Assembly: GCF_016019955.1 (NCBI RefSeq)
Contig: NZ_JAECRZ010000001.1
Span: forward strand, 186,001-250,000
DNA: 64,000 bases
Reading direction: 5' to 3'
Origin: Thiosulfatihalobacter marinus
GTDB taxonomy: Bacteria; Pseudomonadota; Alphaproteobacteria; Rhodobacterales; Rhodobacteraceae
A program made the position numbers and the translations under genes. The notes below the pieces were generated by a model. The model searched no databases. It worked only from the letters and a program-made list of their open reading frames with translations, and was not told the DNA's origin. Shown here one piece after another: positions 42,064 to 55,795 of this stretch (the first letter of the stretch is position 1; each line of letters opens with the position of its first letter).

Positions 42064-43293
42064 TTATCCCTTGAATTTCGACAGCAGCATGGACCCGTTG
42101 GTTCCGCCAAATCCGAAGCTGTTCGTCATCACCGTATCGAGGCCGGCGTTTTCGATTGTTTTTGTGGCAATTTCGTCCGGGTTGATTGCCGGATCAAGCG
42201 TGTCGACATTGATCGACGGCGTAATGAAATCATTCTTGAGCATCAGCAGGCAGAAAATCGCCTCCAATGCCCCGGCCGCGCCCTGGGCATGGCCGGTCAT
42301 CGACTTGGTCGAGGAGATCGGCGGCTGGGCTTGTCCGGCAAAGACGCGGCGCACGGCCTCGACTTCGCCCACATCGCCCACCGGGGTCGATGTGCCGTGG
42401 GCGTTGATGTAATCCACCTTGCGCCCCTGGGGCAGGGTTTGCAGGGCCAGGCGCATGGCGCGTTCGCCGCCTTCACCGGAGGGGGCCACCATGTCATGGC
42501 CGTCCGAGGTGGCGGCAATTCCGGTGACTTCGGCATAGATCTGCGCGCCGCGCGCAAGAGCGTGGTCCAGGTCTTCCAGCACCACAATACCGCCGCCGCC
42601 CGAGATCACGAAGCCGTCGCGATCCGCGTCAAAGGCGCGGGATGCCCTTTCGGGCGTGTCATTGTATTTCGAGGACATGGCGCCCATCGCGTCAAACAGG
42701 CAGGACAGCGTCCAGTCCAGTTCCTCGCCCCCGCCGGCAAACATCACGTCCTGTTTGCCCATCATGATCTGTTCGGCGGCGTTGCCGATGCAATGCAGCG
42801 ACGTGGAACAGGCCGAGGTGATGGAATAGTTGATGCCTTTGATCCTGAACGCGGTCGCCAGGTTGGCCGAGATCGTCGAGGACATGCATTTGGGAACGGC
42901 GAAAGGGCCGATGCGTTTGGTCGCGCCGGATTTCAGCACGGTCTGGTGGGCGGCGAGCATGGCCGAGGTGGACGGCCCGCCGGACCCCGCGACAAGGCCG
43001 GTGCGTTCGTTGACCACGTGATCCTCGGTCAGCCCGGCATCGGCGATGGCCTGACCCATGGCAATATGGGCATAGGCGGCGCCCGGCCCCATGAACCGCA
43101 GGGTGCGTTTGTCGACGAACTCTTTCACGTCGATCTTCAGGGCGCCCGCGATGCGGCTGCGAAAGCCGTGCATTTCCATTTCGGGGCTGGCCACGATGCC
43201 GGAGGTGCCCGCCTTGAGCGAAGCGGTGACTTCTTCGGCGTTGTTTCCGATGGACGAGACGATGCCCAGTCCGGTGACGACGACGCGACGCAT
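42064..43293 (-). CDS. fabB: Beta-ketoacyl-ACP synthase I FabB
   Basis: FabB condenses malonyl-ACP with acyl-ACP and, with FabA, is needed to make unsaturated fatty acids. The 409-residue thiolase-fold enzyme has the active-site Cys in TSACSTSLHCIG (~163), His in NAHGTSTPVGD and His in KSMTGHAQGAAG. AAGGGAG precedes ATG 43293. Its usual upstream partner fabA is 12 kb away, with the idr island between; the preceding gene on this strand is now DUF2478. Confidence 0.96.
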   Translation of the reverse strand: MRRVVVTGLGIVSSIGNNAEEVTASLKAGTSGIVASPEMEMHGFRSRIAGALKIDVKEFVDKRTLRFMGPGAAYAHIAMGQAIADAGLTEDHVVNERTGLVAGSGGPSTSAMLAAHQTVLKSGATKRIGPFAVPKCMSSTISANLATAFRIKGINYSITSACSTSLHCIGNAAEQIMMGKQDVMFAGGGEELDWTLSCLFDAMGAMSSKYNDTPERASRAFDADRDGFVISGGGGIVVLEDLDHALARGAQIYAEVTGIAATSDGHDMVAPSGEGGERAMRLALQTLPQGRKVDYINAHGTSTPVGDVGEVEAVRRVFAGQAQPPISSTKSMTGHAQGAAGALEAIFCLLMLKNDFITPSINVDTLDPAINPDEIATKTIENAGLDTVMTNSFGFGGTNGSMLLSKFKG

Positions 43294-43320
43294 ACGTGCA
43301 CTCCCTTGTTTGCTTAAGCC

Positions 43321-43349
43321 TTACTAGGCGTTGCGCGGGAGCGGTGCAA
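43321..43349 (-). promoter_or_regulatory. Possible promoter of fabB-fabI
   Basis: On the minus strand TTGCAC (43349-43344), 17 bases, TAGTAA (43326-43321), about 30 bases before the fabB start. Each hexamer matches the sigma-70 consensus at only three positions. It lies in the 161-base gap left of the island, which holds nothing else recognisable. Confidence 0.3.
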
Positions 43350-43454
43350 GGTGGGTTGGAAGGGCAGGATGCGTTTCACGCAAGATCAGACCGGCGCCCG
43401 GCCGCGCGGGCAATGCGGGCCTTTGCGCGGCCATTCAAAAGTGGATTGCGCCGC

Positions 43455-43973
43455 TCAGGCCGCATCGCTTTGCGTTGCCGGATCGCGCAGCCAGGCCGCT
43501 ATGTCATGTGTGGTTGGTGCGACACAGGTTGCCAGCCCCTGGGTATATTCGAGAAACGCTTCGAGGTTCCGCGCGCTTACGCCCAGGATGACCGGAACGC
43601 CCCCGGCGACCGCTTCGGCGATCAATCCCCGAAAACCGCGCCCTTCGGCCTCGTGCTTGCCGAATTTGTTGACGATCAGGACATCCGCGGCCCTGGCGAG
43701 CTGGTGCTGGGAGGCCGCTACGGCCTGTTCCAGCGCCGACGGGTTCAGGCGGCAGCCGCGCGCGCCGGGGCCAAGCGACTGGGAAATCCGGATCGTGGGT
43801 CCGTCGGGCAGAATCTTGAGATCCATGTCGCAACGGTGGTCCTTGCCGGTTCGGAGATTGGTCTGGACGACACCGCAGGTGCGCCAGCCGGAGGCGTCCA
43901 GATCCCTGGCCACCCGGGCCAGAAGGCCGTCGTCGCGAGCAGGTCCGGCTGAGGTTACATAGGCGATTTTCAT
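43455..43973 (-). CDS. DUF2478 protein (molybdenum-associated)
   Basis: A 172-residue protein of the DUF2478 family, often encoded near molybdate transport or molybdoenzyme genes; its biochemical role is not known to me. It starts MKIAYVTSAG (ATG 43973), has DHRCDMDLKILPDGPTIRIS and SLGPGARGCRLNP, and VLIVNKFGKHEAEGRGF, all family landmarks and suggestive of nucleotide or oxyanion handling. Four cysteines are present. It is the last gene of the idr operon, 19 bases after the HEAT-repeat gene, and probably serves cofactor supply to the IdrA-like enzyme. Confidence 0.8.
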   Translation of the reverse strand: MKIAYVTSAGPARDDGLLARVARDLDASGWRTCGVVQTNLRTGKDHRCDMDLKILPDGPTIRISQSLGPGARGCRLNPSALEQAVAASQHQLARAADVLIVNKFGKHEAEGRGFRGLIAEAVAGGVPVILGVSARNLEAFLEYTQGLATCVAPTTHDIAAWLRDPATQSDAA

Positions 43974-43992
43974 ACGGTCCCGTCCCTTCTGT

Positions 43993-46131
43993 CTATCCGG
44001 CCTGCGCCCGGGCGAATGCCTCCAGCAAGACAAGGGCATTGCGCGCCGGCATGGCGGATGTCAGCACCCGCGCGGCATGTTCCCCGGCAATCGGGGAACG
44101 CGAAAGCAGCTCCGACAGGGTTGCGATGTGGTCGGATTGCAGCAACCTGTCGACGGCGGCGATGACCGTGGGTCCGTCGGGTGCCTTCAGCACATTGCCA
44201 AGGGCGGATTCGCGCACGGCAGAGGCTTGATCGGTGACATGATCCAGCGCCGCGCCCGGGGGCAGCATGGCCACGGCGGCGGCCCTGATCAGGGCGTCTT
44301 CATCCACCAGGGCCCGGGCCTGGATATCCGCGGTGGCGCCATGTGCGCACAGGATGCGAAACGCGGCGAAGCGAATGACCGGATCGGTCTCCTCCAGCGC
44401 GGACAGGGCCGCGGTGCGGGCTTGCGGGCCTGCGCGCCCGTCCTCGGCCAGGCGGGCCAGCTGTTCCCATGCGGTGGTGCGCAGGCCGTTATCCGTATCG
44501 TCGAGCCGGGAGAGAATGGCCGTTTCGAGCCGTGCATCCGGCAGGTCGGCGGCAATCGTCATGGCCACGCGCGACAGATCGTCGGCTACCGTTTCCGGGC
44601 CTTCGACGGCGCGGCGTTTGCGCTTTTTTCCGCTTTGCCCGTCCGGGGCGGCCTTGTCCTGAGCCGGGGAAACAGGCGGGTCCGCCGACAATTCGGACTG
44701 GATGGAGGCGACTGTCGAGGAAGCGGTGTCCGCCGCTTCGGCGGTATCGGGGACGATGTCGCCATCGGCGGTGATCCGAACCCGATTGGCGCGCGCGCGA
44801 TCCTCTTCGTCTCTGGGCGCCGTCAGATCCGCCGCCTCTTCGGGCGGGCGTTTCTGGAGCCGGTCCCGGGGCGGCAGAACCGAGCCGGCAATGGCCTGGG
44901 CAAGGATTCCGATTGCTTCGCCATCGCCGTCGTCGGCCATGCTCCTGAGACCGTGCAGGGCCGCGACGCGGACCTGTTGGGCGGCGCTGGACAGCAAGGC
45001 CGTCAGGTGCGTCAATCTGTTCGGGACGTGGCGATGCGCCAGCGCCCGAACGGCGGCGACACGCAGGTCCAGCGGGCGGTGCGGGTTCGCGGCCAACTCG
45101 ATCAGGGGCGTTTCGCAACGATCCGGAGCAAGCATTGGCAGAAGTGCGGCCGCAGCCCCCGCAAGATCTGTATTGGCGGATTGCAGCCATGCCAGGGCGT
45201 TGTCGACAAGGGGAGCGTGCAGGTTGGCGGGGACCGGCAGGTCAAGACAGGCCAGGGCGGTGGCTTGCACCTGCGGGCTGTTATCTGCCAGGGCCTGATG
45301 GACGAGGGACGGGTGATCCCCGGCCAGGCGCATGAGAGCCGCGGATCGAATGGCCGGATCGGTGTCCTGGAACAGGGCGGACAAGCGCGTGTCCGTGTCG
45401 GGCAATACAGACATGCCCAGGAGCCTGATCTGCGTGTCGGCAGAGCTCACGATGACATCCGCATATTCCAGGATTGCATCGGGCGCGACCCGAACAAGCG
45501 CCTGCGCCGCGCGTTTGCGCGACAGGGCGTCGCCCACTTCGATCTGGGCGAGCAACCACGGCACGCCGTCGCTGCCCATGTCCGCGAGCGCGGCGAATAC
45601 CTGGGTATCCAGATTTTGCCCGAATTCATCGGCCATGGCCGCGAACATGTCATCGATCGCTTCGGTTGCGCCCATCTTGCCAAGCGCCTGGATGCAGGCT
45701 GTCTGAATGTCCAGCCAGTCTTCCCAATCGCCCAGCTGGTCTTCCCAATGAACGCGGCCCTCGCAACGCGATTGCATCAGGTCGCGCAGCAACCGGGCAG
45801 AGGTGTCGTCCTTGAGGTTTGCCAATGTATGGATCGCGGCCAGTTTCACTTCGCGGACCGGATCCCCTTCCAGCGAGGCCCGCAGATCGGGCGCATCGCC
45901 GGGCAGGGCGTGCGCCGCGAGTGCTTCCATCGCGTCGCTGCGGACATCCGGGTCTTCATCCAGAATGGCCTTGAGCAACGCCTCCCGTATCCCGGTGCCT
46001 TGCGCATCCTGCGCGGCAAGCGCGCGAATGGCGGCGCAGCGCAGAACGTCATTGTCATGGCTGCAAAAGGGCAGGATCGCGGATACGGCGTCGATCTTCT
46101 GGGTTGCGGGGTGGGGAATGTCGGCGATCAT
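43993..46131 (-). CDS. HEAT-repeat protein
   Basis: A 712-residue protein built of alpha-helical HEAT/PBS-lyase-type repeats. Repeat units such as VLRCAAIRALAAQD, DVRSDAMEALAAHA, VREVKLAAIHTLANL, IRSAALMRLAGD, LRVAAVRALAHR and VRVAALHGLRSM run from ~30 to ~410. A polar, basic, disordered linker (~430-525, with GKKRKRRAV) is followed by more repeats to the end. No signal peptide, so it should be cytoplasmic, unlike the exported Rieske and peroxidases. HEAT proteins scaffold or deliver partners; position between idrA and DUF2478 suggests maturation of the molybdoenzyme. Function is inferred from context only. Confidence 0.85.
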   Translation of the reverse strand: MIADIPHPATQKIDAVSAILPFCSHDNDVLRCAAIRALAAQDAQGTGIREALLKAILDEDPDVRSDAMEALAAHALPGDAPDLRASLEGDPVREVKLAAIHTLANLKDDTSARLLRDLMQSRCEGRVHWEDQLGDWEDWLDIQTACIQALGKMGATEAIDDMFAAMADEFGQNLDTQVFAALADMGSDGVPWLLAQIEVGDALSRKRAAQALVRVAPDAILEYADVIVSSADTQIRLLGMSVLPDTDTRLSALFQDTDPAIRSAALMRLAGDHPSLVHQALADNSPQVQATALACLDLPVPANLHAPLVDNALAWLQSANTDLAGAAAALLPMLAPDRCETPLIELAANPHRPLDLRVAAVRALAHRHVPNRLTHLTALLSSAAQQVRVAALHGLRSMADDGDGEAIGILAQAIAGSVLPPRDRLQKRPPEEAADLTAPRDEEDRARANRVRITADGDIVPDTAEAADTASSTVASIQSELSADPPVSPAQDKAAPDGQSGKKRKRRAVEGPETVADDLSRVAMTIAADLPDARLETAILSRLDDTDNGLRTTAWEQLARLAEDGRAGPQARTAALSALEETDPVIRFAAFRILCAHGATADIQARALVDEDALIRAAAVAMLPPGAALDHVTDQASAVRESALGNVLKAPDGPTVIAAVDRLLQSDHIATLSELLSRSPIAGEHAARVLTSAMPARNALVLLEAFARAQAG

Positions 46132-46156
46132 GGGAGCCCTCTCTTGAGCAAAAGGA

Positions 46157-46188
46157 GCCGCCCGGCACGTGGATCTGCGCCGGGCGGC
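46157..46188 (-). terminator. Hairpin between idrA-like and HEAT-repeat genes
   Basis: Perfect ten-base stem GCCGCCCGGC / GCCGGGCGGC with a 12-base loop, followed on the minus strand by TCCTTTT. It may partly terminate or stabilise the mRNA after idrA, lowering expression of the two downstream genes. Confidence 0.55.
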
Positions 46189-46200
46189 GTTGTCAGGCCG

Positions 46201-48876
46201 TTACGCGATATCGCGGCGGGCAAAGGACATCGAGCGGAACTGCGATTTATAGGGGCTTTCACCCATCTTGCGCACCTTGCCGACACCCATCTTGTAGTTG
46301 TAGTTGCCGCTGATCCAGTCGACCACGCGACCGGACAGGGCGTTTGCCGGCTGAGCGGTATGCAGGAAGTCCATGTACCCCACGTTTTGCTTTACCGCGG
46401 GCGTGACGATGGCGACGGCGGTGATCGAGGCCTTGGTCAGTTCGATATGGCCGTTCTTCATCAGCGATGTGAATTCGAAATCATCGCCTTCGACACCGAC
46501 GATGGTGTCTTTCTGCACCGGGATGCGATCGGAATAGACCTGGACGTAATCGCCGCTTTCGATGCCACGGGCGGCGGCGATGTCCGGGTGGATCTCGATC
46601 CAGTTCTCGGGCCAGCGCTGTACGATATACGGGCGGCGGCGGTCATCATATCCCGATTGCCAACGCTCGTTGATCCGGCCGGACGTGATCCAGATCTCGT
46701 CTTCACGCGGCTTGAGCCACTCCCAGTAGCCCGCGAACAGATCCCAGGGCGCCTTCTGGATGTTGCATTTGCCGGTCTGGCTGTTGAAATGGGTCAGTTT
46801 CTTGTTGAAGACGTTCTTGCCCACCGGGCCTTCTTCGGGCAGCACGCGATTGACATCATGCAGGCGCTTGGTGCCTTCGAGCGAGCCGTCTTCCAGCATC
46901 AGGACAGGCCCCTGGATACCGTTAGTGCCGAATTCGCCCATCTTTTCATGCAGGGTCTTGCCCTCGCGCTTGGCAACGACATTGACCATGTTGAAGTCCT
47001 TGCGAGACCCGCGCGAATAGCGCGCCCCTTCTTCCAGCACGTCATTGGAGGTTTGCCAGTCGAAACCTTCAAAGCCCATTTTCCTGGCCAGCTGGGCGAT
47101 GATCCACCAGTCCGACTTGGATTCGCCCGGCGCGTCGTAGAACTTGGGGTACAGGCGCAGGCGCCGTTCGCCATTGGCGCGGGTGAACGTGTCTTCGCCC
47201 CAGCCCGAGGCCGGAAACACGATGTCGGCATAGCGCGCGCCAATCGGATCGACCAGATAGATATCCTGGTTCCACACCACCATGCCGCCGCTGTCGGCGC
47301 GCCGCTTCAGCGTGTCGATGATGTCCTGTTTTTCAAAGCTCTGCACCTGATGCGGATTGCGCGTGGTCAGCTCGTCGAACTTGGCTTGCAGGCTTTGCGA
47401 GCCGCACATGGCCTGGACCCAGGTTGTTCCGATCACATGCGCCAGCCTTGTGTGGCCGCTCATCAGGTACCGGTCGGTATCCATGGCGCGGCGACGGCGG
47501 CCGGGAAGTTTTTCGGGTGACTTGTTGCGGGGATACCCGCCGCCCCGCAGCCCGCCGCGCTGGTGGCCGCCGGCGCGACCGATCATCTGGCCGGGGCGCC
47601 CGCCGGCCCCGACGACAATGCCAAGCGCCGAAATCGCCTGGGTGTTGCCGGTGTTGTTGGACCAGTAGAACCCCTTTTCAATCATGATCGAGGTCTTGGG
47701 CCGGGTGCCGTCGGACCTGGGCTTGGCCATCCATTCGGCGGCGGTATAGATCTTCTGCACGTCGATCTGGGCGATCTCGGCGGCTTTTTCCGGCTCGGCA
47801 TAGTCCTGGGCCAGCAGCCATTCCTTCCAGTCGTCAAAGCCGCTGGTCTGAAACTTGCCCCAGGTCGTGCGCCATTGCCAGGGCGTGTTCCGGGTGCCCT
47901 GGCCGAAGCCCGAGGAGCTTTCCCATTTGTTGTTGACCCAGTTCTTGATCCATTCGTCGTCCTGCCAGCCGTTTTCGACGATAACACGGGCGATCGCCAG
48001 GACAACGGGCAGGTCCGTGCCGGGCTGGATGTCCAGCAACAGGCCGCCGTTCTTTTCCGCGAATGCCACACCGGCGGTGCGGCGCGGCACCATGAAGATC
48101 GCCTTCTGCCCGCCCTGGATCGCGGGCATGATGTAGTCGGTAAACAGGATGGTCTTGGTTTCGTAGGGATCGGTGCCGCAGATCAGCAAGGTATCGGCGG
48201 CGGCCCAGTCTTCGTAGCTGGGGCCGAAATTGTCGAACCCGGCATCGCGGAAGCCCGGTGTCGAGGTGACATCCGATGGCGTGTCGTGGAAGGTGAAATT
48301 CGCGGTGCGGACATTGCGCAGCGCATATTTCGTGATCGCGTAGGTGTTCTCCATGAAGCCATAAGAGAATGTCCTGACGCCATAGGCATTGGTCCCGTGC
48401 TTTTCCAGCACGTGGTTGCCGACCTCTGCCGCGATATCCAGCGCGAAATCCCAGGTCACGGGCATCAGCACGCCGAACATGCGCACCATCGGGCTTTTCA
48501 GCCGGTCGCGGGTCGGGGTTTGCGGGTTGTAGACCTTTTGCGCCAGAGCGCCGCCGCGGATCGACGAGTTGCCGGAATAATTGACGAATTCGGCGTCCTT
48601 GTCGGGGATGATCACCACATGATGCGGTTCGCCGTTATGCAGCACGATGTTGTGCTGGTTCGGCGCCACCCAGGCGCCAAGCGGCGCGACCGGGAAATCT
48701 TCGCCAAAGGCGTTCTGGTCGGCGGCGGGACCGCCATTGCGGTTGCCCGCGACCGGCCAGCGGTAGACCTTGTAGCCGCAGGCGACAACGCAATAGTCAC
48801 AGGCTGTCGGGATCACCTCGGCATCTGGCGGCGGCAGGGGGATGGACTGTTCGGGCACGTAATATGGTGTGGACAT
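46201..48876 (-). CDS. idrA: Molybdopterin oxidoreductase, iodate reductase catalytic subunit IdrA-like (AioA clade)
   Basis: An 891-residue DMSO-reductase-family enzyme of the arsenite-oxidase-like branch. The [3Fe-4S] site C-x2-C-x3-C-x70-S is exact: Cys26, Cys29, Cys33 and Ser104. Other shared landmarks are SGNSSIRGG, GTDPYET, AGGHQRGG, NGERRLRLYPKF and the ending MSFARRDIA. It has no signal peptide; AioA-type subunits are carried out with the Tat-tagged Rieske subunit. What argues for iodate rather than arsenite is the operon: two di-haem peroxidases plus Rieske, the idrABP1P2 set described in Pseudomonas sp. SCT and Denitromonas. It is transcribed after the Rieske gene (12-base gap). Arsenite oxidase remains the alternative, but no aio sensor or cytochrome gene is near. 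Confidence 0.82.
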   Translation of the reverse strand: MSTPYYVPEQSIPLPPPDAEVIPTACDYCVVACGYKVYRWPVAGNRNGGPAADQNAFGEDFPVAPLGAWVAPNQHNIVLHNGEPHHVVIIPDKDAEFVNYSGNSSIRGGALAQKVYNPQTPTRDRLKSPMVRMFGVLMPVTWDFALDIAAEVGNHVLEKHGTNAYGVRTFSYGFMENTYAITKYALRNVRTANFTFHDTPSDVTSTPGFRDAGFDNFGPSYEDWAAADTLLICGTDPYETKTILFTDYIMPAIQGGQKAIFMVPRRTAGVAFAEKNGGLLLDIQPGTDLPVVLAIARVIVENGWQDDEWIKNWVNNKWESSSGFGQGTRNTPWQWRTTWGKFQTSGFDDWKEWLLAQDYAEPEKAAEIAQIDVQKIYTAAEWMAKPRSDGTRPKTSIMIEKGFYWSNNTGNTQAISALGIVVGAGGRPGQMIGRAGGHQRGGLRGGGYPRNKSPEKLPGRRRRAMDTDRYLMSGHTRLAHVIGTTWVQAMCGSQSLQAKFDELTTRNPHQVQSFEKQDIIDTLKRRADSGGMVVWNQDIYLVDPIGARYADIVFPASGWGEDTFTRANGERRLRLYPKFYDAPGESKSDWWIIAQLARKMGFEGFDWQTSNDVLEEGARYSRGSRKDFNMVNVVAKREGKTLHEKMGEFGTNGIQGPVLMLEDGSLEGTKRLHDVNRVLPEEGPVGKNVFNKKLTHFNSQTGKCNIQKAPWDLFAGYWEWLKPREDEIWITSGRINERWQSGYDDRRRPYIVQRWPENWIEIHPDIAAARGIESGDYVQVYSDRIPVQKDTIVGVEGDDFEFTSLMKNGHIELTKASITAVAIVTPAVKQNVGYMDFLHTAQPANALSGRVVDWISGNYNYKMGVGKVRKMGESPYKSQFRSMSFARRDIA

Positions 48877-48888
48877 GGGGGTTCCTCC

Positions 48889-49476
48889 TCAGCCCTGAAG
48901 ATTGTCAAAGCGGCCGTAGATCAGGCCGAACATGCCGACGGCGTAGATGTCGTCGCCGTCGAGTTCGAGCAGCACCTGGGGCAGCGATTGATACGCCTGG
49001 CCCGAGATGAAGATGCCGTGGCGCGTCAGATCGAATGTGGTCAGGTGCAGCGGGCACGGTCCCAGCGCCTTGTCGGCAGCCTGGTAGGTGCCCTGCAACG
49101 GCCCGCCCTGGTGGGTGCAGGTGTAATTGAAGGCAACCACGTCCTTGTCCGGCCCAAGGCCGCCTCCGGCCAGTTTGCCCAGTTTCACAAGAATGGATTC
49201 GGCATATTGTCCTTCGTCGGGGTATTCGAAATCGAAGGGTTCATCGACCTTGAGGTCGCTGAGCCTGGCAATGAACTTGCGCGGATAGGTCGAGATCACC
49301 GCCGGAGTCTGGGCCTGGGGCATTCCGGGGATGCCAACCATGACAACCGTTGTGGCGATGCCGCCGGTCAGGAGAAACTGCCGCCTGTTCATAAGGCATT
49401 TGCGTGTGCCTGCCTCGGCGGCCTCGCCGTTTTCGCCGTTGATGGCGGCAACAATCTTGGGATCGAGCTTGGTCAT
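48889..49476 (-). CDS. idrB: Rieske [2Fe-2S] subunit, IdrB-like, Tat-exported
   Basis: A 195-residue Rieske protein. Residues ~29-57 form a Tat signal: NRRQFLLTGG then a hydrophobic stretch ending GMPQA. The cluster motif is C-x-H-x18-C-x2-H (YTCTHQGG ... GPCPLH). The extra cysteines that form a disulfide in bc1-type Rieske proteins are absent (Gly and Leu instead). It would pass electrons to or from the Mo subunit and help export it. A 28-residue extension precedes the Tat motif (start ATG 49476); ATG 49392 at the signal is an alternative. Confidence 0.85.
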   Translation of the reverse strand: MTKLDPKIVAAINGENGEAAEAGTRKCLMNRRQFLLTGGIATTVVMVGIPGMPQAQTPAVISTYPRKFIARLSDLKVDEPFDFEYPDEGQYAESILVKLGKLAGGGLGPDKDVVAFNYTCTHQGGPLQGTYQAADKALGPCPLHLTTFDLTRHGIFISGQAYQSLPQVLLELDGDDIYAVGMFGLIYGRFDNLQG

Positions 49477-49490
49477 TTGGGCTCTCCTTT

Positions 49491-50612
49491 TCAGTTCTGC
49501 GCCACGGGCAGGGGTTGCATTTCGGGGATCTCGGGCTGTTGCGGCAGGATCTCGTCGCCGCTCAGGCTTTCGAGGAAGGCCACGAGATCGTCGATTTCAC
49601 CGTCGTTCAGCCCCAGGGGCTGGATGAGATCGCTCTTGGTGTCCGCAAACTCGTTGGTGCCGCCACCTTCGTTGTAGAACACCACCACGTCGCGCAGCGT
49701 TTCCAGCATCCCGTTATGCATGTAGGGGTAGGTGTATTTCGTATAGCGCAGGCTGGGGACGCGGAACTTTCCCTTGTCGGCGGTCTGCTTGGTGCGGAAA
49801 TACAGCCCCGGATCGTCCTTGGTGGAGCGGTACATCTTTTCGGTCGATCCCTTGGCCAGCAGTTCGAAGCGGAAGGTGATCTGGGCAACCGGATCGGTTT
49901 CCCAGCCGTCGAAAGGTGGCACGCCGATATTGTAGTAGGCCTCGTTGGTCAGCAGCGCGCCGTTGTGGCAGGTGGCGCAGCTGGCCTTGCCGGTAAACAG
50001 ATCCAGCCCGCGTTTCTGCTGCGCGCTCAGCGCGTCGTCATCGCCTCGCATGTACTCGTCGAACGGCGTGTCGGTCTGGACCAAGGTGCGCTCGTAAGCT
50101 GCGATGGCCATGTAGGCATTGCGCACCAGCGGCCAGTCGTCGCCGAACACTTGCTTGAACGCGGCACGGTATTCCGGGACGAAGGCCAGACGCGCCTCCA
50201 TCATGTCGTCCTCGCCATTCCCCGCGACGCCGCCGCGCGCGGCGGACCGGGCCTGACCTTCGAGCGACTTGGACGCGCCCGCCCAGAACAGCTTGCCGTA
50301 ATAGGCCGAGTTGATGATGGTCTGGCTGTTGCGCCAGTGGGTCGTTCCCGGATAGCCGAAGCTGATCTTGTCCTGCACGGCCCAGCCCGCTTCGGGCAGG
50401 TGGCAGGACGCGCAGGAGATGCCGTAATTGCCCGACAGGATCGGATCAAAGAACAGCTTTTCGCCCAGCGCGATCTTTTCCGGGGTCATCGGGTTGTCCG
50501 CCGGGATGGGCGGCGGGCCGAGGGGCGCCAGGTTTTCCGGGCGATCCTGTGCAGTGACAGTCGAGGCCAGCCCGAGGGCGACTCCGGCGGCAATGAGTGT
50601 TGTGCGTTTCAT
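49491..50612 (-). CDS. Di-haem cytochrome c peroxidase (IdrP-like), second in operon
   Basis: A 373-residue periplasmic protein of the MauG/CcpA family. It has a signal peptide (MKRTTLIAAGVALGL ... TVTA), and two haem c motifs, CASCH (Cys67-His71) and CATCH (Cys212-His216). YMHNGML near the C-terminus matches the family. The start is ATG 50612 with GGAGGG upstream. In the iodate system such proteins are proposed to remove H2O2 formed during reduction. I cannot tell whether it corresponds to IdrP1 or IdrP2. 14 bases separate it from the Rieske gene. Confidence 0.85.
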   Translation of the reverse strand: MKRTTLIAAGVALGLASTVTAQDRPENLAPLGPPPIPADNPMTPEKIALGEKLFFDPILSGNYGISCASCHLPEAGWAVQDKISFGYPGTTHWRNSQTIINSAYYGKLFWAGASKSLEGQARSAARGGVAGNGEDDMMEARLAFVPEYRAAFKQVFGDDWPLVRNAYMAIAAYERTLVQTDTPFDEYMRGDDDALSAQQKRGLDLFTGKASCATCHNGALLTNEAYYNIGVPPFDGWETDPVAQITFRFELLAKGSTEKMYRSTKDDPGLYFRTKQTADKGKFRVPSLRYTKYTYPYMHNGMLETLRDVVVFYNEGGGTNEFADTKSDLIQPLGLNDGEIDDLVAFLESLSGDEILPQQPEIPEMQPLPVAQN

Positions 50613-50626
50613 AATTCCGCCCTCCA

Positions 50627-51703
50627 TCAATTCGGCACGTCGCGCCAGTTTTCGATCAGTTGGTAATCGTAGTCGTCTTCGCGCCAGACATAGGCGTCGG
50701 TGTCGAAACTCTCGCCCGAGAGGCTTTCGAGGAACGCCACCAGATCCGCCTTTTCGCTGGGCACAAGCCCCAGGGGCTTCAACCGGCTGTCCTTGAGCGG
50801 GTCCGCCCCGCCGCCGGCGTCGTAGAAATCGACCACCTCTTCCAGCGTTGCCATGATGCCGTTGTGCATATAGGGCGCGGTATAGGTCAGCTCGCGCAAT
50901 GTCGGCGTCAGGAACGTGCGGCGCTTGTCCTGTTGGTGGGTGCGAATGTAGGCGCCCAGATCCTCGCGCAGGTTCATGTAATCCTCGACGCCCATGAACT
51001 TGGCATAGGTCACGAAGGCCGAATGCCGTTGAGGATCGGACCAGATGTCCGGGTTGTTGGCCACACCGGTATTGTAGGGCTGGTCATCGGTGAACCGGGA
51101 GCCGGAATGGCACGACGCGCAGTTGGCCTTGCCTTCGAAAATGACCTGGCCGCGCTGGGCGGCGGCCGAAAGCGTGCCGGTATCGATCGGGGCATTGCGC
51201 GATTGAATGGTCTGCTGGAAGGCTTGCAGCGCATTGCGCGCGCCGCCATTGGATGGCTCTCCCAGACCGGCTGCCGCGAACATCTCGACATATACCGGAT
51301 CCTGCTTCAGCCGGTCCTGCATGATGCGCATGTCCATGTTCATCAGGTAGGTCTCGGTGATCATCTCGCGGGTCACGTCGTTCAGGTTGGTGCCCAGCCG
51401 GCCATCGTGCAGCCAGGCGTCGCGATAGCCGGTATTGGCCAGCGTTGGCGTATTGCGGAAATGGGCGGCGCCGGTATAGGCGTCGCTCAATGCCTGGCCA
51501 TCGGTAAAGGCCTTGCCGGGTTGGTGGCAGCTTGCACAGGCCAGCGAGGCGTCGCCGGACAGGCGGGTGTCGTAGAACAACCGCTTGCCCAGTTCGGCGC
51601 GTGCCGGATTGACATCAAGCGGTGGCTCCGGTGTTACGGCCTCTTGGGCCAGGGCGCTGCTTCCCATTAACAGCGCCGTTAGTGCCAGGGTTCTCATGAT
51701 CAT
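50627..51703 (-). CDS. Di-haem cytochrome c peroxidase (IdrP-like), first in operon
   Basis: A 358-residue MauG/CcpA-type peroxidase with signal peptide (MRTLALTALLMGSSALAQ), haem motifs CASCH (~Cys54) and CASCH in GKANCASCHSG (~190), HFRNTPTLANTGYRDAWLHDGR between them, and YMHNGIM. It ends VPN, 14 bases before the second peroxidase. Start is ATG 51703 (GGAG seven bases upstream) or ATG 51697. ATG 51703 overlaps the preceding small ORF by four bases. The two peroxidases are paralogous but clearly diverged, so this is not a recent duplication. Confidence 0.85.
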   Translation of the reverse strand: MIMRTLALTALLMGSSALAQEAVTPEPPLDVNPARAELGKRLFYDTRLSGDASLACASCHQPGKAFTDGQALSDAYTGAAHFRNTPTLANTGYRDAWLHDGRLGTNLNDVTREMITETYLMNMDMRIMQDRLKQDPVYVEMFAAAGLGEPSNGGARNALQAFQQTIQSRNAPIDTGTLSAAAQRGQVIFEGKANCASCHSGSRFTDDQPYNTGVANNPDIWSDPQRHSAFVTYAKFMGVEDYMNLREDLGAYIRTHQQDKRRTFLTPTLRELTYTAPYMHNGIMATLEEVVDFYDAGGGADPLKDSRLKPLGLVPSEKADLVAFLESLSGESFDTDAYVWREDDYDYQLIENWRDVPN

Positions 51704-52044
51704 GCGCTATCTCCTTTCACGACCGTTCGGGCCGGGTTATGTGCGCCGACACGGTTTTGCGGCGAATTCTGAATATGAGCGTGGCGGGGGGATGCCGGCC
51801 TGTGGTCCGGCGCCCGGACCGAAGACAGGGCCGCGGCGATCTTGCCGGCGGCCTCGGGCAGCCATTCCGGGGTGTCCGCCGCCGCCGGATCTGAAGGGTT
51901 TGCGCAGAACGCGATCACGTTCGCGCCGGCAAAATCATTGCTGTCCTGTCTGGCCACGATGCCCCCCTGGCACGTTGGAGTCGTGTTCGGGGGCAATCCT
52001 GCACGCGGCGTCCGCACCCGAGAATACACGTCGGTCTTCGACAT
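51700..52044 (-). CDS. Small ORF translationally coupled to the first peroxidase
   Basis: A predicted 114-residue product I do not recognise. Its stop overlaps the peroxidase ATG (ATGA), and the GAAAGGAGATAG that serves the peroxidase lies inside its last codons. The third codon position is strongly G/C over residues ~25-75, as in real genes here. The segment DFAGANVIAFCANPSDP is the most protein-like; the C-terminal third looks unconstrained. Two cysteines, no signal peptide. A leader ORF coupling translation of the idr operon is an alternative. Confidence 0.45.
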   Translation of the reverse strand: MSKTDVYSRVRTPRAGLPPNTTPTCQGGIVARQDSNDFAGANVIAFCANPSDPAAADTPEWLPEAAGKIAAALSSVRAPDHRPASPRHAHIQNSPQNRVGAHNPARTVVKGDSA

Positions 52045-52088
52045 GAGCCTAGCGTCCCGGTGCGGCGGTGTTGTTGCGGGCAGGGTTA

Positions 52089-52118
52089 TGAAATGTGATT
52101 TTTTGTGACGAAATGTTG
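52089..52118. promoter_or_regulatory. Three 10-bp direct repeats at the idr operon head
   Basis: TGAAATGTGA, TTTTTTGTGA and CGAAATGTTG follow each other with exact 10-bp periodicity; GAAATGT at 52090 and 52110 is identical, two helical turns apart. Located ~45 bases upstream of the small ORF and idr genes on the minus strand. Tandem 10-bp sites fit binding by an OmpR-family regulator such as the one at 54419. Confidence 0.5.
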
Positions 52119-52146
52119 CGGTGCGTTCAACGTCCGCGCACCCTGG

Positions 52147-54351
52147 TCAGGCATCGAGCAGGTTGCGAATCCGGTGGGCCAGCTGGACCGGATCGACGGG
52201 TTTGCGCATCAGAATCGGGCCGGTATCGTCTTCATTGGCGGAGTCGGGATAGTAGGCGCTGCAAAAAATCACCGGCAGTGTCGGGCGCATCTGGCGAATG
52301 TGCGCGACAAGGTCTTCGCCGCTCATGCCGGGCATCACCATGTCCGAGATGACCAGATCGTAGCGTTGCGGCTTGGCGCGGAACCGCTCCAGCGCCACCA
52401 GCGGAGATGTGAACGCCTCGACCCGGTATCCAAGCCGAAGCAACACCCGCCGGAATGTTCCGGCGATCTCGGCCTCGTCATCAATGACCATGATCACCTC
52501 GTGCCCGCCCTGCGGCGCCGCGGCGGCCATGGCCACCGATTGCGCCGACAGGCTGGTGGCCGGAATATCGACCGTGAAGCAACTGCCCTGGCCCGGGGTG
52601 CTTTCGACGGAGATGTGCCCGTGCATTTCGTCGACAAGCCCGAACACGACGGACAATCCCAGCCCCGATCCCTTGCCCAGAGGTTTGGTGGTAAAGAAGG
52701 GTTCAAAGAGATGCGCCCTGGTCTGGGCCGACATTCCCGGCCCATCGTCCGAAACGCTTAGACGTACCCAGCCATCGGCGCGCAATTCGCAATTGTCCAG
52801 CCGGTCGTGATGGTCCAGGTTTACCCGGATTGTGCCTTCGTCGCCCCCCAGGGCCTCGGCGGCGTTTCGGCACAGGTTCATCACCACCTGGTGCAGATGG
52901 GTCGGATCGCCCAGCACGGCGGTATTCCCCGACGCCGTGGCCACTTCCAGCGCCACCGTCGGCGGTATGGATGCGCGCAGCAGATTGACGACCTCATCAA
53001 CGATTTGCGACAGGATCACCGGCTGGAGCCTGCCCGGTTCGCGGCGCGCGAATGTCAGCAGCTCCTGGACCAGGCTTTGCGCGCGCCGCGCCGCAATCGC
53101 GATTTGTCCGATCTCTTTTCCAAGATCGCTGTCGGGTTCGGCATCCAGCGCGGCAAGATGCGCAGCGCCGACGATCGTGGTCAGGATATTGTTGAAATCA
53201 TGGGCGACACCCCCGGCCAGCTGCCCCACGGCCTCCAGTTTCTGGGCCCGGACGATCTGTTCGCGTACCTGCCGCTTTTCGGTGATGTCTTCTCCGAAGC
53301 CGATATAGTTGGTGATTTCGCCCGCCGGGTTCACCAGGGGAAGAATGGTGGTTTCGGCCCAGTAGCTGGAGCCGTCCCGACATCGGTTGCGGAACACGCC
53401 ATGCCAGGTTTCACCCCTTGACAGTGTTTTGCGAAGCTCCGAATAGAGGCCGGGCGCGGCATCGCCCGATTGCAGGAACGCCGGCGTTCTGCCGATGATT
53501 TCCGGCAGCGTCCAGCCGGTCATGTCCTGGAATTTCCGGTTCACATACTGGATGCGGGCGTCGGTATCCGTCATCACGATCGTGGCCGGGCTTTGTTCGA
53601 CCGCGGCGGCCAGACGGCTTTGCGCGCGTTCAAGGCGCCGTCTTTCCACGAGTTCGGCCTCGAGACGGGCCACCGCGCCGCGCAGATTGCGCACCAGAAT
53701 CACCAGCAATGTTCCGATGACAGAGGCTGCGAGAACCAGCGCGAACAGCGACAGAAACCCGATCCAGATGAGTTGCCGGCCCTGCCGGACCGCGGCCTCG
53801 ATCCGCGCCGAGCTGCGGCTTTGATGATCGTGCCAGATGCTTTCCAGCTCTGCCAGCGCCCTGATCGCGCCGCTGTCGTCCACCCGAACCAGCGCGTCGG
53901 TCCGGGCCGGCGCCCAGCCCTCCCGGGCCGCGCGGGCCGCAATCGGAATCTTTGCTTCGTAGGCGGCAATCGTCCGTGCGATCCTGTCAAGGGCGTCGGC
54001 CTCGCCCGGCAGCAGGTCGGAGGCGAGAAAATCCGACATGACCGCGTTGAACCGGGCGACCTGGGCGCGGGTCGCCTTCAGATAGGCCGGGTCCTGGCGC
54101 AACACGAAATTCTTGAAATTGTGAATGATCCCGCCATACCCGAGATGTCCGCGAATCGTGCTGATCCAGATGCCTTTTTTCTCGGAGACATTGGCATATT
54201 GCGACCAGCTGGCCTCGACCTCTTCAAACTGTGCGCGGGTTTGAAAACCCAGGGTCAGACCCAGCGCGACAGTGACCAGCAGAAGGGTTGCGGCGGCGGA
54301 GGCAATGGCCAGAAAACGGCGAATCGAAAGTTCCGGTACTTGCGGTGTCAT
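52147..54351 (-). CDS. Hybrid sensor histidine kinase
   Basis: A 734-residue membrane kinase. TM1 at ~13-36, a ~155-residue periplasmic helical sensor region, TM2 at ~192-217, a PAS domain (~250-360; ATIVMTDTDARIQYVN), HisKA with phosphoacceptor His in GGVAHDFNN (~384), an ATPase domain (LCRNAAEAL, SDDGPGM, GLGLSVVFG) and a C-terminal receiver (VIDDEAE, Asp in VISDMVMPG, Lys in MRKP). Start ATG 54351 has AAGGGG upstream. It is divergent from an OmpR-type regulator and upstream of the idr genes on the same strand. Inferred role: sensing iodate or redox state. Not of the AioS type. Confidence 0.88.
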   Translation of the reverse strand: MTPQVPELSIRRFLAIASAAATLLLVTVALGLTLGFQTRAQFEEVEASWSQYANVSEKKGIWISTIRGHLGYGGIIHNFKNFVLRQDPAYLKATRAQVARFNAVMSDFLASDLLPGEADALDRIARTIAAYEAKIPIAARAAREGWAPARTDALVRVDDSGAIRALAELESIWHDHQSRSSARIEAAVRQGRQLIWIGFLSLFALVLAASVIGTLLVILVRNLRGAVARLEAELVERRRLERAQSRLAAAVEQSPATIVMTDTDARIQYVNRKFQDMTGWTLPEIIGRTPAFLQSGDAAPGLYSELRKTLSRGETWHGVFRNRCRDGSSYWAETTILPLVNPAGEITNYIGFGEDITEKRQVREQIVRAQKLEAVGQLAGGVAHDFNNILTTIVGAAHLAALDAEPDSDLGKEIGQIAIAARRAQSLVQELLTFARREPGRLQPVILSQIVDEVVNLLRASIPPTVALEVATASGNTAVLGDPTHLHQVVMNLCRNAAEALGGDEGTIRVNLDHHDRLDNCELRADGWVRLSVSDDGPGMSAQTRAHLFEPFFTTKPLGKGSGLGLSVVFGLVDEMHGHISVESTPGQGSCFTVDIPATSLSAQSVAMAAAAPQGGHEVIMVIDDEAEIAGTFRRVLLRLGYRVEAFTSPLVALERFRAKPQRYDLVISDMVMPGMSGEDLVAHIRQMRPTLPVIFCSAYYPDSANEDDTGPILMRKPVDPVQLAHRIRNLLDA

Positions 54352-54418
54352 TCTCGGCCCCTTCAATTGCGCCGCGAAAGTCGCGAATCTATAACGCATC
54401 ATAGGGGGCCGGTTAATC
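54352..54418. promoter_or_regulatory. Divergent promoter of the kinase and regulator genes
   Basis: A 67-base AT-richer gap containing CGCGAAAGTCGCG, a dyad with a three-base centre at ~54372-54384. Autoregulation here is plausible. Confidence 0.35.
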
Positions 54419-55135
54419 ATGCAACACAGCATTCTAATTGTTGATGACGATCAACAGCTTACGTCGTTTCTTGGGCGATTCTTCGCAAAGCACGGCTATC
54501 AGGCGACAACGGTTGGAACCGCGGCGCAGACCTTTGCCGCGCTTGAAAATGGCGCGTTCGATCTGGTGATCCTGGACTTGATCCTGCCTGATGAGGATGG
54601 GTTGGAAGTGGCCAAGACCTTGCGCAAGACCACCGGGATCCCGATCATCATGCTGACTGCCCGCGACGACATTTATGATCGGATCGTGGGGCTGGAACTG
54701 GGGGCGGATGACTATGTCACCAAACCCTATGAGCCGCGCGAATTGCTGGCGCGGGTGCGCACCGTGTTGCGCCGGACCGCGAAGCATGAGACCGGCGAAA
54801 CGCCCGAGCGGAATTCGCAGCGCGTGATGTGTTTTGACGATTTCGAGCTGGATACCCTGAAGGCATCGGTGTCGCGCCGGTCCGACGGGCAGGTTCTGGA
54901 TCTTACAAGTACGGAATTCGCGCTGCTTCGGGTCCTGTCGGAGGCCGGTGGGGATGTACTTCGCCGCGAAGAGATCCTTGACGCGGTTTATGGCAATGCC
55001 ATCACGATCACGGATCGGGCGATCGACGCCCATGTTGCGCGCCTGCGCAAGAAGCTGTCCGCCGCCGATGCGCGCAGTGACATAATTCGCACCATTCACG
55101 GTGTCGGTTACAAGCTGACAGCGCAAGTCGAATAG
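54419..55135 (+). CDS. OmpR/PhoB-family response regulator
   Basis: A 238-residue two-domain regulator. Receiver: acidic patch VDDDQQ, phosphoacceptor Asp53 in ILDLILPDEDG, Thr in MLTARDD, Lys in VTKPYEP. C-terminal winged helix: LDLTSTEFALLRVL, ITDRAIDAHVARLRKKL and IHGVGYKL. Divergent from the hybrid kinase, with 67 bases between them. Probably phosphorylated by that kinase and binding the 10-bp repeats at 52089. Confidence 0.92.
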   Translation: MQHSILIVDDDQQLTSFLGRFFAKHGYQATTVGTAAQTFAALENGAFDLVILDLILPDEDGLEVAKTLRKTTGIPIIMLTARDDIYDRIVGLELGADDYVTKPYEPRELLARVRTVLRRTAKHETGETPERNSQRVMCFDDFELDTLKASVSRRSDGQVLDLTSTEFALLRVLSEAGGDVLRREEILDAVYGNAITITDRAIDAHVARLRKKLSAADARSDIIRTIHGVGYKLTAQVE

Positions 55136-55222
55136 GCGCCGCCCTGCGCGGACAGGGCCGCGGGACGGTTCTGCGCACGGACGCGGCGCACCGGATGGGA
55201 CAAGTCTGTGTGGCGGGCGCGT

Positions 55223-55250
55223 GAAACAGGCGCCAGAAGGCCCCTGTTTC
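55223..55250. terminator. Hairpin between regulator and fabA 3' ends
   Basis: GAAACAGG / CCTGTTTC stem with a long 12-base loop, between convergent genes. No T run in either direction. The rest of 55136-55285 shows nothing recognisable and contains the right-hand island boundary. Confidence 0.4.
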
Positions 55251-55285
55251 CGGTCACGTACCGGTCAGGCGATGTACAGGCAGCC

Positions 55286-55795
55286 TCAGCTTTCGCTGAG
55301 CGCCACGCGCATGTTCTTGACTTCGTAGATCACTTCGCCATCCGCTTCGACGATGCCGTCGGCGACGCCCATGGTCAGGCGGCGGGTCTGGATCGCCTTG
55401 GTGAAGTCGATCTTGTAGGTCAGCATCTTGCGGTCGGGGCGCACCATGCCTTTGAGCTTGACTTCGCCCACGCCCAGCGCATAGCCGCGCCCGGTCCAGC
55501 CACGCCAGCCCAGATTGAAGCCGGTCAGCTGCCAAAGGCCGTCCAGGCCAAGGCAACCGGGCATGATCGGGTTGCCGGGGAAGTGGCAGTCAAAGAACCA
55601 CAGGTCGGGCGTAATGTCGAATTCCGCAAGGATGTGGCCCTTGCCATGGGCGCCGCCATCGGCCGACACCTCGGTGATCCGGTCCATCATCAGCATCGGC
55701 GGGGCGGGCAGCTGGGCATTGCCGGGGCCAAAGAGTTCGCCGCGGGCGCATTTCAGCAGGTCCGCTTTGTCGAAGCTGGTGGGATAGTCGGCCAT
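55286..55795 (-). CDS. fabA: 3-hydroxydecanoyl-ACP dehydratase/isomerase FabA
   Basis: FabA introduces the cis double bond at the C10 stage in anaerobic-type unsaturated fatty acid synthesis. The 169-residue hot-dog protein has the active-site His in [12 protein letters not shown] and the Asp in [10 protein letters not shown]. Length is standard. It is divergent from irr. Its usual downstream partners fabB and fabI lie 12 kb further on, past the idr island. Confidence 0.96.

Follow-up and report, generated by a model that had tools for sequence, protein, structure and literature searches.

A probable iodate reductase island of the marine alphaproteobacterial type with a predicted two-component switch and a candidate maturation partner of IdrA

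The window analyzed here, a stretch of 64,000 nucleotides from Thiosulfatihalobacter marinus, carries on its minus strand between positions 46201 and 51703 four genes in the order idrP2-P1-B-A. The first gene of the transcript, idrP2 (50627..51703), and its neighbor idrP1 (49491..50630) encode members of the di-haem cytochrome c peroxidase family, each with a CCP_MauG domain and two CxxCH motifs. They are followed by idrB (48889..49476, 195 residues) for the Rieske subunit, with the Rieske motif C120-x-H-x18-C-x2-H and the leader motif RRQFL, and by idrA (46201..48876, 891 residues) for the catalytic molybdopterin subunit with its [3Fe-4S] domain, in which the Fe-S motif reads C26-x2-C-x3-C-x70-S104. 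Both the Tat-type leader of IdrB and the lack of a leader on IdrA were judged by eye. Pfam assigns Rieske_3, Molybdopterin and Molydop_binding to the Mo subunit and Rieske to IdrB, and the NCBIfam arsenite oxidase models TIGR02693 (425.7 bits, cut-off 359.05) and TIGR02694 (119.5 bits, cut-off 95.65; on IdrB) match.

Open reading frames, Pfam and NCBIfam agree on these four genes, and the first-pass annotation was right about their coordinates and domains: an AioA-like Mo subunit with C-x2-C-x3-C-x70-S, a Rieske protein with a Tat export signal and two di-haem c peroxidases. The gaps of 12-14 bases that it gave hold for two of the junctions (12 and 14 bases), whereas the peroxidase reading frames overlap by up to 4 bases. 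The gene order was also given correctly but is no peculiarity of this locus, as idrP2,P1,B,A is called the characteristic order in the literature (PMC10989891). The interval proposed for the gene set, 43455..52044, ends with a doubtful reading frame and omits the kinase/regulator pair at 52147-55135. This reading frame (51700-52044, minus strand, 114 residues) has no Pfam or NCBIfam family, and a tblastn search of 80 idr loci (E ≤ 1e-5) returned no match; it is probably not a gene.

The idr loci of relatives were scanned on the contigs of the best 80 of 116 relatives. Wherever at least 3.3 kb of upstream sequence was available idrP2 was found (62/62 loci), and idrP1 was found in 64 of the 65 loci with 2 kb upstream. 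The sole miss, L085, possesses both P1 and the Rieske gene, which appear absent from the neighborhood count because its IdrA match is split. A second AioA or IdrA does not occur in the own genome, where the next match scores 42.7 bits. On contig C60 of this genome we observed a separate NapA-like molybdoenzyme of about 833 residues (by eye).

The four genes are part of an idr island of 12.0 kb (43294..55285) located between fabB (42064-43293) and fabA (55286-55795); FabA, FabB and Irr were identified by NCBIfam. In relatives the spacing between fabA and fabB amounts to 38 bp (G231), 47 bp (G075), 640 bp (G294) or 935 bp (G055), and in G210, a member of the same genus without an IdrA match, to 2.6 kb. 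In G231, which contains an IdrA of 92% identity, idr and fabB share a contig but are far apart. An idr cluster that lies between fabA and fabB here and at a distance in G231, together with a tight junction elsewhere, fits an island that moves. According to Reyes-Umana et al, 145 genomes possess idr, and its surroundings are poorly conserved (PMC8692401). The fabA/fabB junction of several relatives (L106, L107, L108) holds differing inserts of 0.6 to 2.6 kb and is a possible insertion hotspot. At the fabB side of the island a DUF2478 protein is encoded (43455..44039, minus strand, Pfam 176.1 bits). We regard it as a poorly conserved accessory and rejected it as a core part, since it is present in only 10 of the 44 alpha-type loci with 5.5 kb downstream.

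Downstream of idrA lies a gene for a HEAT-repeat protein (43993..46131, minus strand, 712 residues, Pfam HEAT_2, no leader by eye), which we consider a candidate maturation partner of IdrA. Its distribution was determined in 394 genomes of the family (E ≤ 1e-5) and 385 genomes of the class by scoring the two best candidates per genome, so that weak paralogs could be missed; for the own genome scoring was extended to all 18 candidates and led to a single match. In the family sample 18 genomes contain an IdrA of at least 69% identity. HEAT occurs in 17 genomes, all among those 18, and adjoins idrA in 17/17; in the one without a HEAT match (G095) idrA is cut by the contig end. It is absent from the 4 family genomes with an IdrA of 48-53% and from the 28 with AioA-like matches only. 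The class sample gives a similar picture: IdrA of at least 57% identity in 12 genomes, HEAT in 11, all among those 12, and adjoining idrA in 9 of the 11. In G681 the gene lies 13.6 kb from idrA on the same contig, in G675 on a different contig with idrA at a contig end, and in the twelfth genome, G455, which has no HEAT match, idrA is again cut by the contig end. If both samples are joined (G000 is part of both), all 27 distinct genomes with HEAT possess IdrA, and HEAT is found in 27 of the 29 genomes with an IdrA of at least 57% identity, the two others being those with a truncated idrA.

At the level of loci, HEAT follows idrA in 58 out of 59 alpha-type loci (IdrA of at least 71% identity, at least 1 kb downstream); in the exception, L056 with 1.9 kb downstream, it is missing beside idrA and from the rest of the genome. 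Below 71% identity it is found downstream in 1 out of 12 loci, and none stands beside the 51% IdrA of Azonexus. HEAT is therefore no universal need, and IdrA evidently matures without it in other lineages. Two gammaproteobacterial loci (L058:3166-5574 and L060:3208-5595) carry HEAT protein genes divergently upstream of idrP2 with profile E-values of 1e-60 and 3e-59, respectively, although such profiles may also pick up HEAT proteins that are unrelated. In G728 the HEAT sequence beside an IdrA of 87% identity matches in two pieces with one internal stop, which may be a broken gene or a sequencing error.

In its structure model (mean pLDDT 89.1) the HEAT protein forms a helical solenoid of two parts, with a linker that is disordered. 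Across 46 sequences eight residues never vary (D60, D62, R64, D90, P91, R236, D256 and T473). Only HEAT-repeat type models of Pfam and NCBIfam match the protein and no TorD/NarJ-type chaperone family model does; it may nevertheless act like such a chaperone without belonging to that family. A cytoplasmic partner of a Tat-exported molybdoenzyme would most simply be a maturation factor, and with moderate confidence we favor this role. The HEAT protein would then be a dedicated partner which holds IdrA through its maturation, before Tat export. It could also be argued that it serves regulation or the repair of oxidant damage instead, as HEAT solenoids are general binding scaffolds and the reactions of the pathway yield reactive iodine species in the published model. 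This we consider unlikely: the gene occurs both with and without the kinase pair, and a protein lacking a leader (by eye) would not be at the site of oxidant formation. Somewhat less likely still is a gene that travels as a passenger of the island, unrelated to IdrA. In agreement with a passenger, the fold search returned generic solenoids only (importins, the PP2A scaffold, the spliceosome), and the protein diverges fast, its counterparts in 45 relatives being 18-44% identical to that of the window. However, HEAT is retained in G681 despite its distance from idrA, it occurs in 0 sampled genomes without IdrA at the threshold used, and DUF2478 on the same islands reaches only 10/44 compared to 58/59 for HEAT. 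The main texts on iodate and idr that were searched give no account of a HEAT gene at idr; their supplements and figures may show one.

Beyond idrP2 the island contains a hybrid sensor histidine kinase (52147..54432, minus strand) and, divergent from it, a response regulator of the OmpR family (54419..55135, plus strand, Response_reg and Trans_reg_C). The kinase, whose true start is probably near 54351, has two predicted membrane helices, a periplasmic helical domain, and PAS, HisKA, HATPase and receiver domains (Pfam); it ends in the receiver, and the Pfam scan finds no HPt domain. The nearest paralog of the regulator in the own genome is 45% identical, and the periplasmic domain of the kinase has no paralog there. 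This domain is helical in the model and contains a nearly invariant LGYGGIIH-x-FKNYVLR in 26 kinases. It has no fold match at E ≤ 0.001 (the best is the Adeh_2942 sensor domain, E 3.7e-3) and thus gives no clue to the ligand. Of the 49 alpha-type loci with at least 6 kb of upstream sequence, 25 contain both the kinase and the regulator and 24 contain neither; a single one of the two was never seen.

Just past the kinase gene we found tandem direct repeats of 10 bp (52081..52120, minus strand) that comprise three units (52091-52120) and a fourth, weak one (52081-52090), which we propose as the site of the regulator. Their distance from idrP2 is 387 bases in the window, at the upper limit of the distances observed. 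All 26 loci with the pair, the window among them, served to build a weight matrix, which was used to scan within 450 bases of idrP2. It finds the box in 24 of the 26 with 18.8-39.3 bits (window 39.2) and in 0 of the 37 loci without the pair, where the best control scores 14.5 bits. The box of L078 lies beyond 450 bases (28.8 bits), raising the number of pair-bearing loci with a box to 25 out of 26; L021 possesses the pair and a weak box of 10.9 bits. In leave-one-out tests 24/26 loci score higher than any of 20 shuffles. A matrix trained on 18 loci, with training sites that had been chosen using the full matrix, gives 20.5-25.7 for six distant loci compared to a control maximum of 7.9. Without any matrix, pairs of TNACA at a lag of 10 are present in 16/25 loci versus 1/37, and any other lag from 6 to 15 is seen in at most one locus. 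Allowing one mismatch, the degenerate box pattern occurs once in the 4.16-Mb genome, namely here, and 0 times in the backward control, from which we predict that the regulator has one main target.

Taken together, these observations make it quite likely that pair and box represent a dedicated switch of the island. In the periplasm the kinase would sense iodate or one of its products, and the OmpR-type regulator could bind the tandem 10-bp repeats and switch on idrP2-P1-B-A-HEAT. A resemblance exists to TorSR, where a kinase with a receiver and an OmpR-family regulator act on a molybdoenzyme operon that has several 10-bp sites (PMC9239176). The pair differs from it in that the TorR model (188.4 of 275) and the TorS model (108.4 of 676.5) both stay below their NCBIfam cut-offs, and the published tor boxes differ in sequence from the box found here (CGTCACAttt against CTGTTCATAT). 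Since the site is predicted from the sequence, and pair and box adjoin and are inherited together, one might suppose that the repeats bind another regulator or mark another function, and that the pair controls something else. This is improbable in our view: the repeats are alike while their flanking DNA is not, no further site exists in the genome at one mismatch, and direct repeats of 10 bp fit OmpR-family sites such as the tor boxes (PMC9239176). The main texts on iodate and idr that were searched describe neither an OmpR-type pair at idr nor such repeats before idrP2; their supplements and figures may do so.

Other arrangements were observed upstream of idrP2. L024 (5202-5921) and L041 (5115-5834) carry a divergent Crp/Fnr-type regulator in place of the kinase pair, which suggests an exchanged switch. 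In L068 (3698-5965) and L072 (3532-5811), both alpha-type and without the pair, a c-type cytochrome with an EB_dh (ethylbenzene dehydrogenase haem) domain lies directly upstream of idrP2; it is a possible electron donor to IdrAB.

To place the catalytic subunit we computed a tree in which the window was combined with 79 loci and 3 rows served as outgroup; 89 loci possess an IdrA or AioA relative, and 10 partial ones were omitted. The first-pass annotation had proposed a phylogeny of the 46201-48876 product with AioA as a check, and this product groups among 74 IdrA-type rows, apart from 6 AioA rows, with an SH-aLRT of 100 on the IdrA branch (length 2.11) and 84 on the AioA branch, although the method was a quick one and, according to a warning of the program, branches in the outgroup and AioA rows are long. 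The IdrA clade is named from gene neighborhood because the rows hold no experimentally tested IdrA (those of SCT, IR-12, DN11, TC-10 and R. azorensis are not among them), and the genus Aliiroseovarius is sampled by one genome (G352). The Fe-S motif, which had been taken as evidence for idr, is common to AioA and does not separate the two: its three Cys are present in 6/6 AioA rows, and the Ser conserved in all 80 aligned rows corresponds to S105 of the window, one past the x70 position (S104).

The residues around the active site are more telling. Eight second-sphere pocket residues are listed for the arsenite oxidase of NT-26 (PMC10448176). The window retains four of them (H199, K413, R447 and H451 in NT-26 numbering) and replaces D169, R201, E207 and E453 by S171, T199, S205 and R440, respectively. 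At these four positions the AioA residue occurs in 0/74 IdrA-type rows compared to 6/6 AioA rows. The position of E207 is occupied by S (65 rows), D (7) or A (2) in the IdrA-type rows and that of E453 by R (73) or C (1). In comparison with the AioAB of NT-26 and Alcaligenes faecalis, the locus thus shares the fold, the cofactor domains, the Fe-S and Rieske subunits and half of the eight pocket residues, and differs in the other half, the tree position, the peroxidases and the regulators.

As the tree split, the four changed pocket residues and the constant presence of idrP2 indicate, the core is very probably an iodate reductase, as the first-pass annotation had concluded. Pocket identity does not name a substrate, and our support comes from sequence; an enzyme acting on another oxyanion such as bromate or chlorate, with iodate incidental, is nonetheless very unlikely, given that idr is reported to be induced by 0.1 μM iodate in Roseovarius azorensis (PMC11445184) and that an idrA deletion in Denitromonas is reported to abolish growth on iodate (PMC8692401), both with the same gene set as here. 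An arsenite oxidase standing beside two peroxidases by chance would explain the scores of TIGR02693 and TIGR02694, the AioA structures as closest solved ones by sequence and the retained pocket residues, but we reject it on the basis of the tree and the replaced residues, and AioA loci show a CCP match in 0/6 cases (four of them with only about 1.4 kb upstream). The two NCBIfam models do not tell Idr from Aio, and annotation based on their cut-offs will mislead; for IdrA itself an HMM with a score threshold of 640 has been published (PMC8692401). We read the locus, with a probability of roughly 0.8, as an idr core together with its switch on an island of the marine alphaproteobacterial type.

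The core is already of a known type. The four genes and their order are alike in the idrABP1P2 clusters described for Pseudomonas sp. SCT, Denitromonas sp. IR-12, Azoarcus sp. DN11 and Aromatoleum TC-10 (PMC10149662, PMC8692401, PMC10989891), as are the Fe-S, Rieske and haem motifs and a Tat leader on IdrB only. Differences arise in the surroundings. DN11 is reported to carry a sigma-54 regulator and its kinase upstream (PMC10149662), and islands of the TC-10 type may carry a two-component system, already proposed as an iodate sensor, a c551-like cytochrome and moaA (PMC8801600), whereas in the window a hybrid kinase is paired with a regulator of the OmpR type, and idrA is followed by a HEAT gene. 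Further counterparts are R. azorensis and Aliiroseovarius sediminilitoris (both Rhodobacteraceae-type) and Notoacmeibacter marinus, marine alphaproteobacteria with idrABP1P2 (PMC11445184), whose clusters probably represent the same kind of island. The main text of that report makes no mention of a HEAT gene or regulators in the three strains; its supplements may show them. Among the relatives scanned, the culturable Litoreibacter ascidiaceicola (L061) and Zongyanglinia marina (L063) possess the same island as the window. Among the more distant loci, a plasmid of Azonexus hydrophilus (L091) bears an idr-like cluster, annotated as arsenate reductase (azurin), with a sigma-54 regulator, a c-type cytochrome and moaA in the vicinity of TnsA-like and IS21 genes, and the 1.7-Mb replicon of Vibrio sp. 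THAF190c (L090) contains an idr locus with an IdrA of 66% identity in a record without annotation.

With regard to physiology, iodate reduction by Rhodobacteraceae with idr and the induction by iodate were published in 2024. Kine et al report that R. azorensis, A. sediminilitoris and N. marinus reduce iodate under oxygen limitation and that these three aerobic alphaproteobacteria do not grow anaerobically on it, and they show that iodate induces idr in R. azorensis (PMC11445184). The term dissimilatory used in the first-pass annotation is therefore not established for this locus. According to the published model, IdrAB would receive electrons from cytochrome c in the periplasm and reduce iodate to hypoiodous acid, which would disproportionate to iodide, while IdrP1 and IdrP2 would remove oxidants. 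As the tested strains reduce iodate at limited oxygen, the island likely provides an electron sink at low oxygen rather than a growth-supporting respiration.

Iodide in surface seawater reacts with ozone. In one strain examined, sub-micromolar iodate is sufficient to induce idr (PMC11445184). For other lineages a sensor was already suggested (PMC8801600), but for the alphaproteobacterial type the texts searched name neither a sensor site nor a maturation factor. The linked HEAT gene, the pair and the repeats represent testable leads on iodate sensing and on the production of IdrA, and they would help to distinguish idr from the arsenite oxidase label given by annotation models. We tentatively propose, at not quite even odds, that marine alphaproteobacterial IdrA relies on an unrecognized HEAT maturation factor which is absent from the sampled alphaproteobacterial genomes without IdrA, and that about half of the islands carry their own iodate-sensing pair with one genomic target. 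If this is true, the HEAT gene and the 10-bp box would be markers of iodate-inducible reduction in the ocean.
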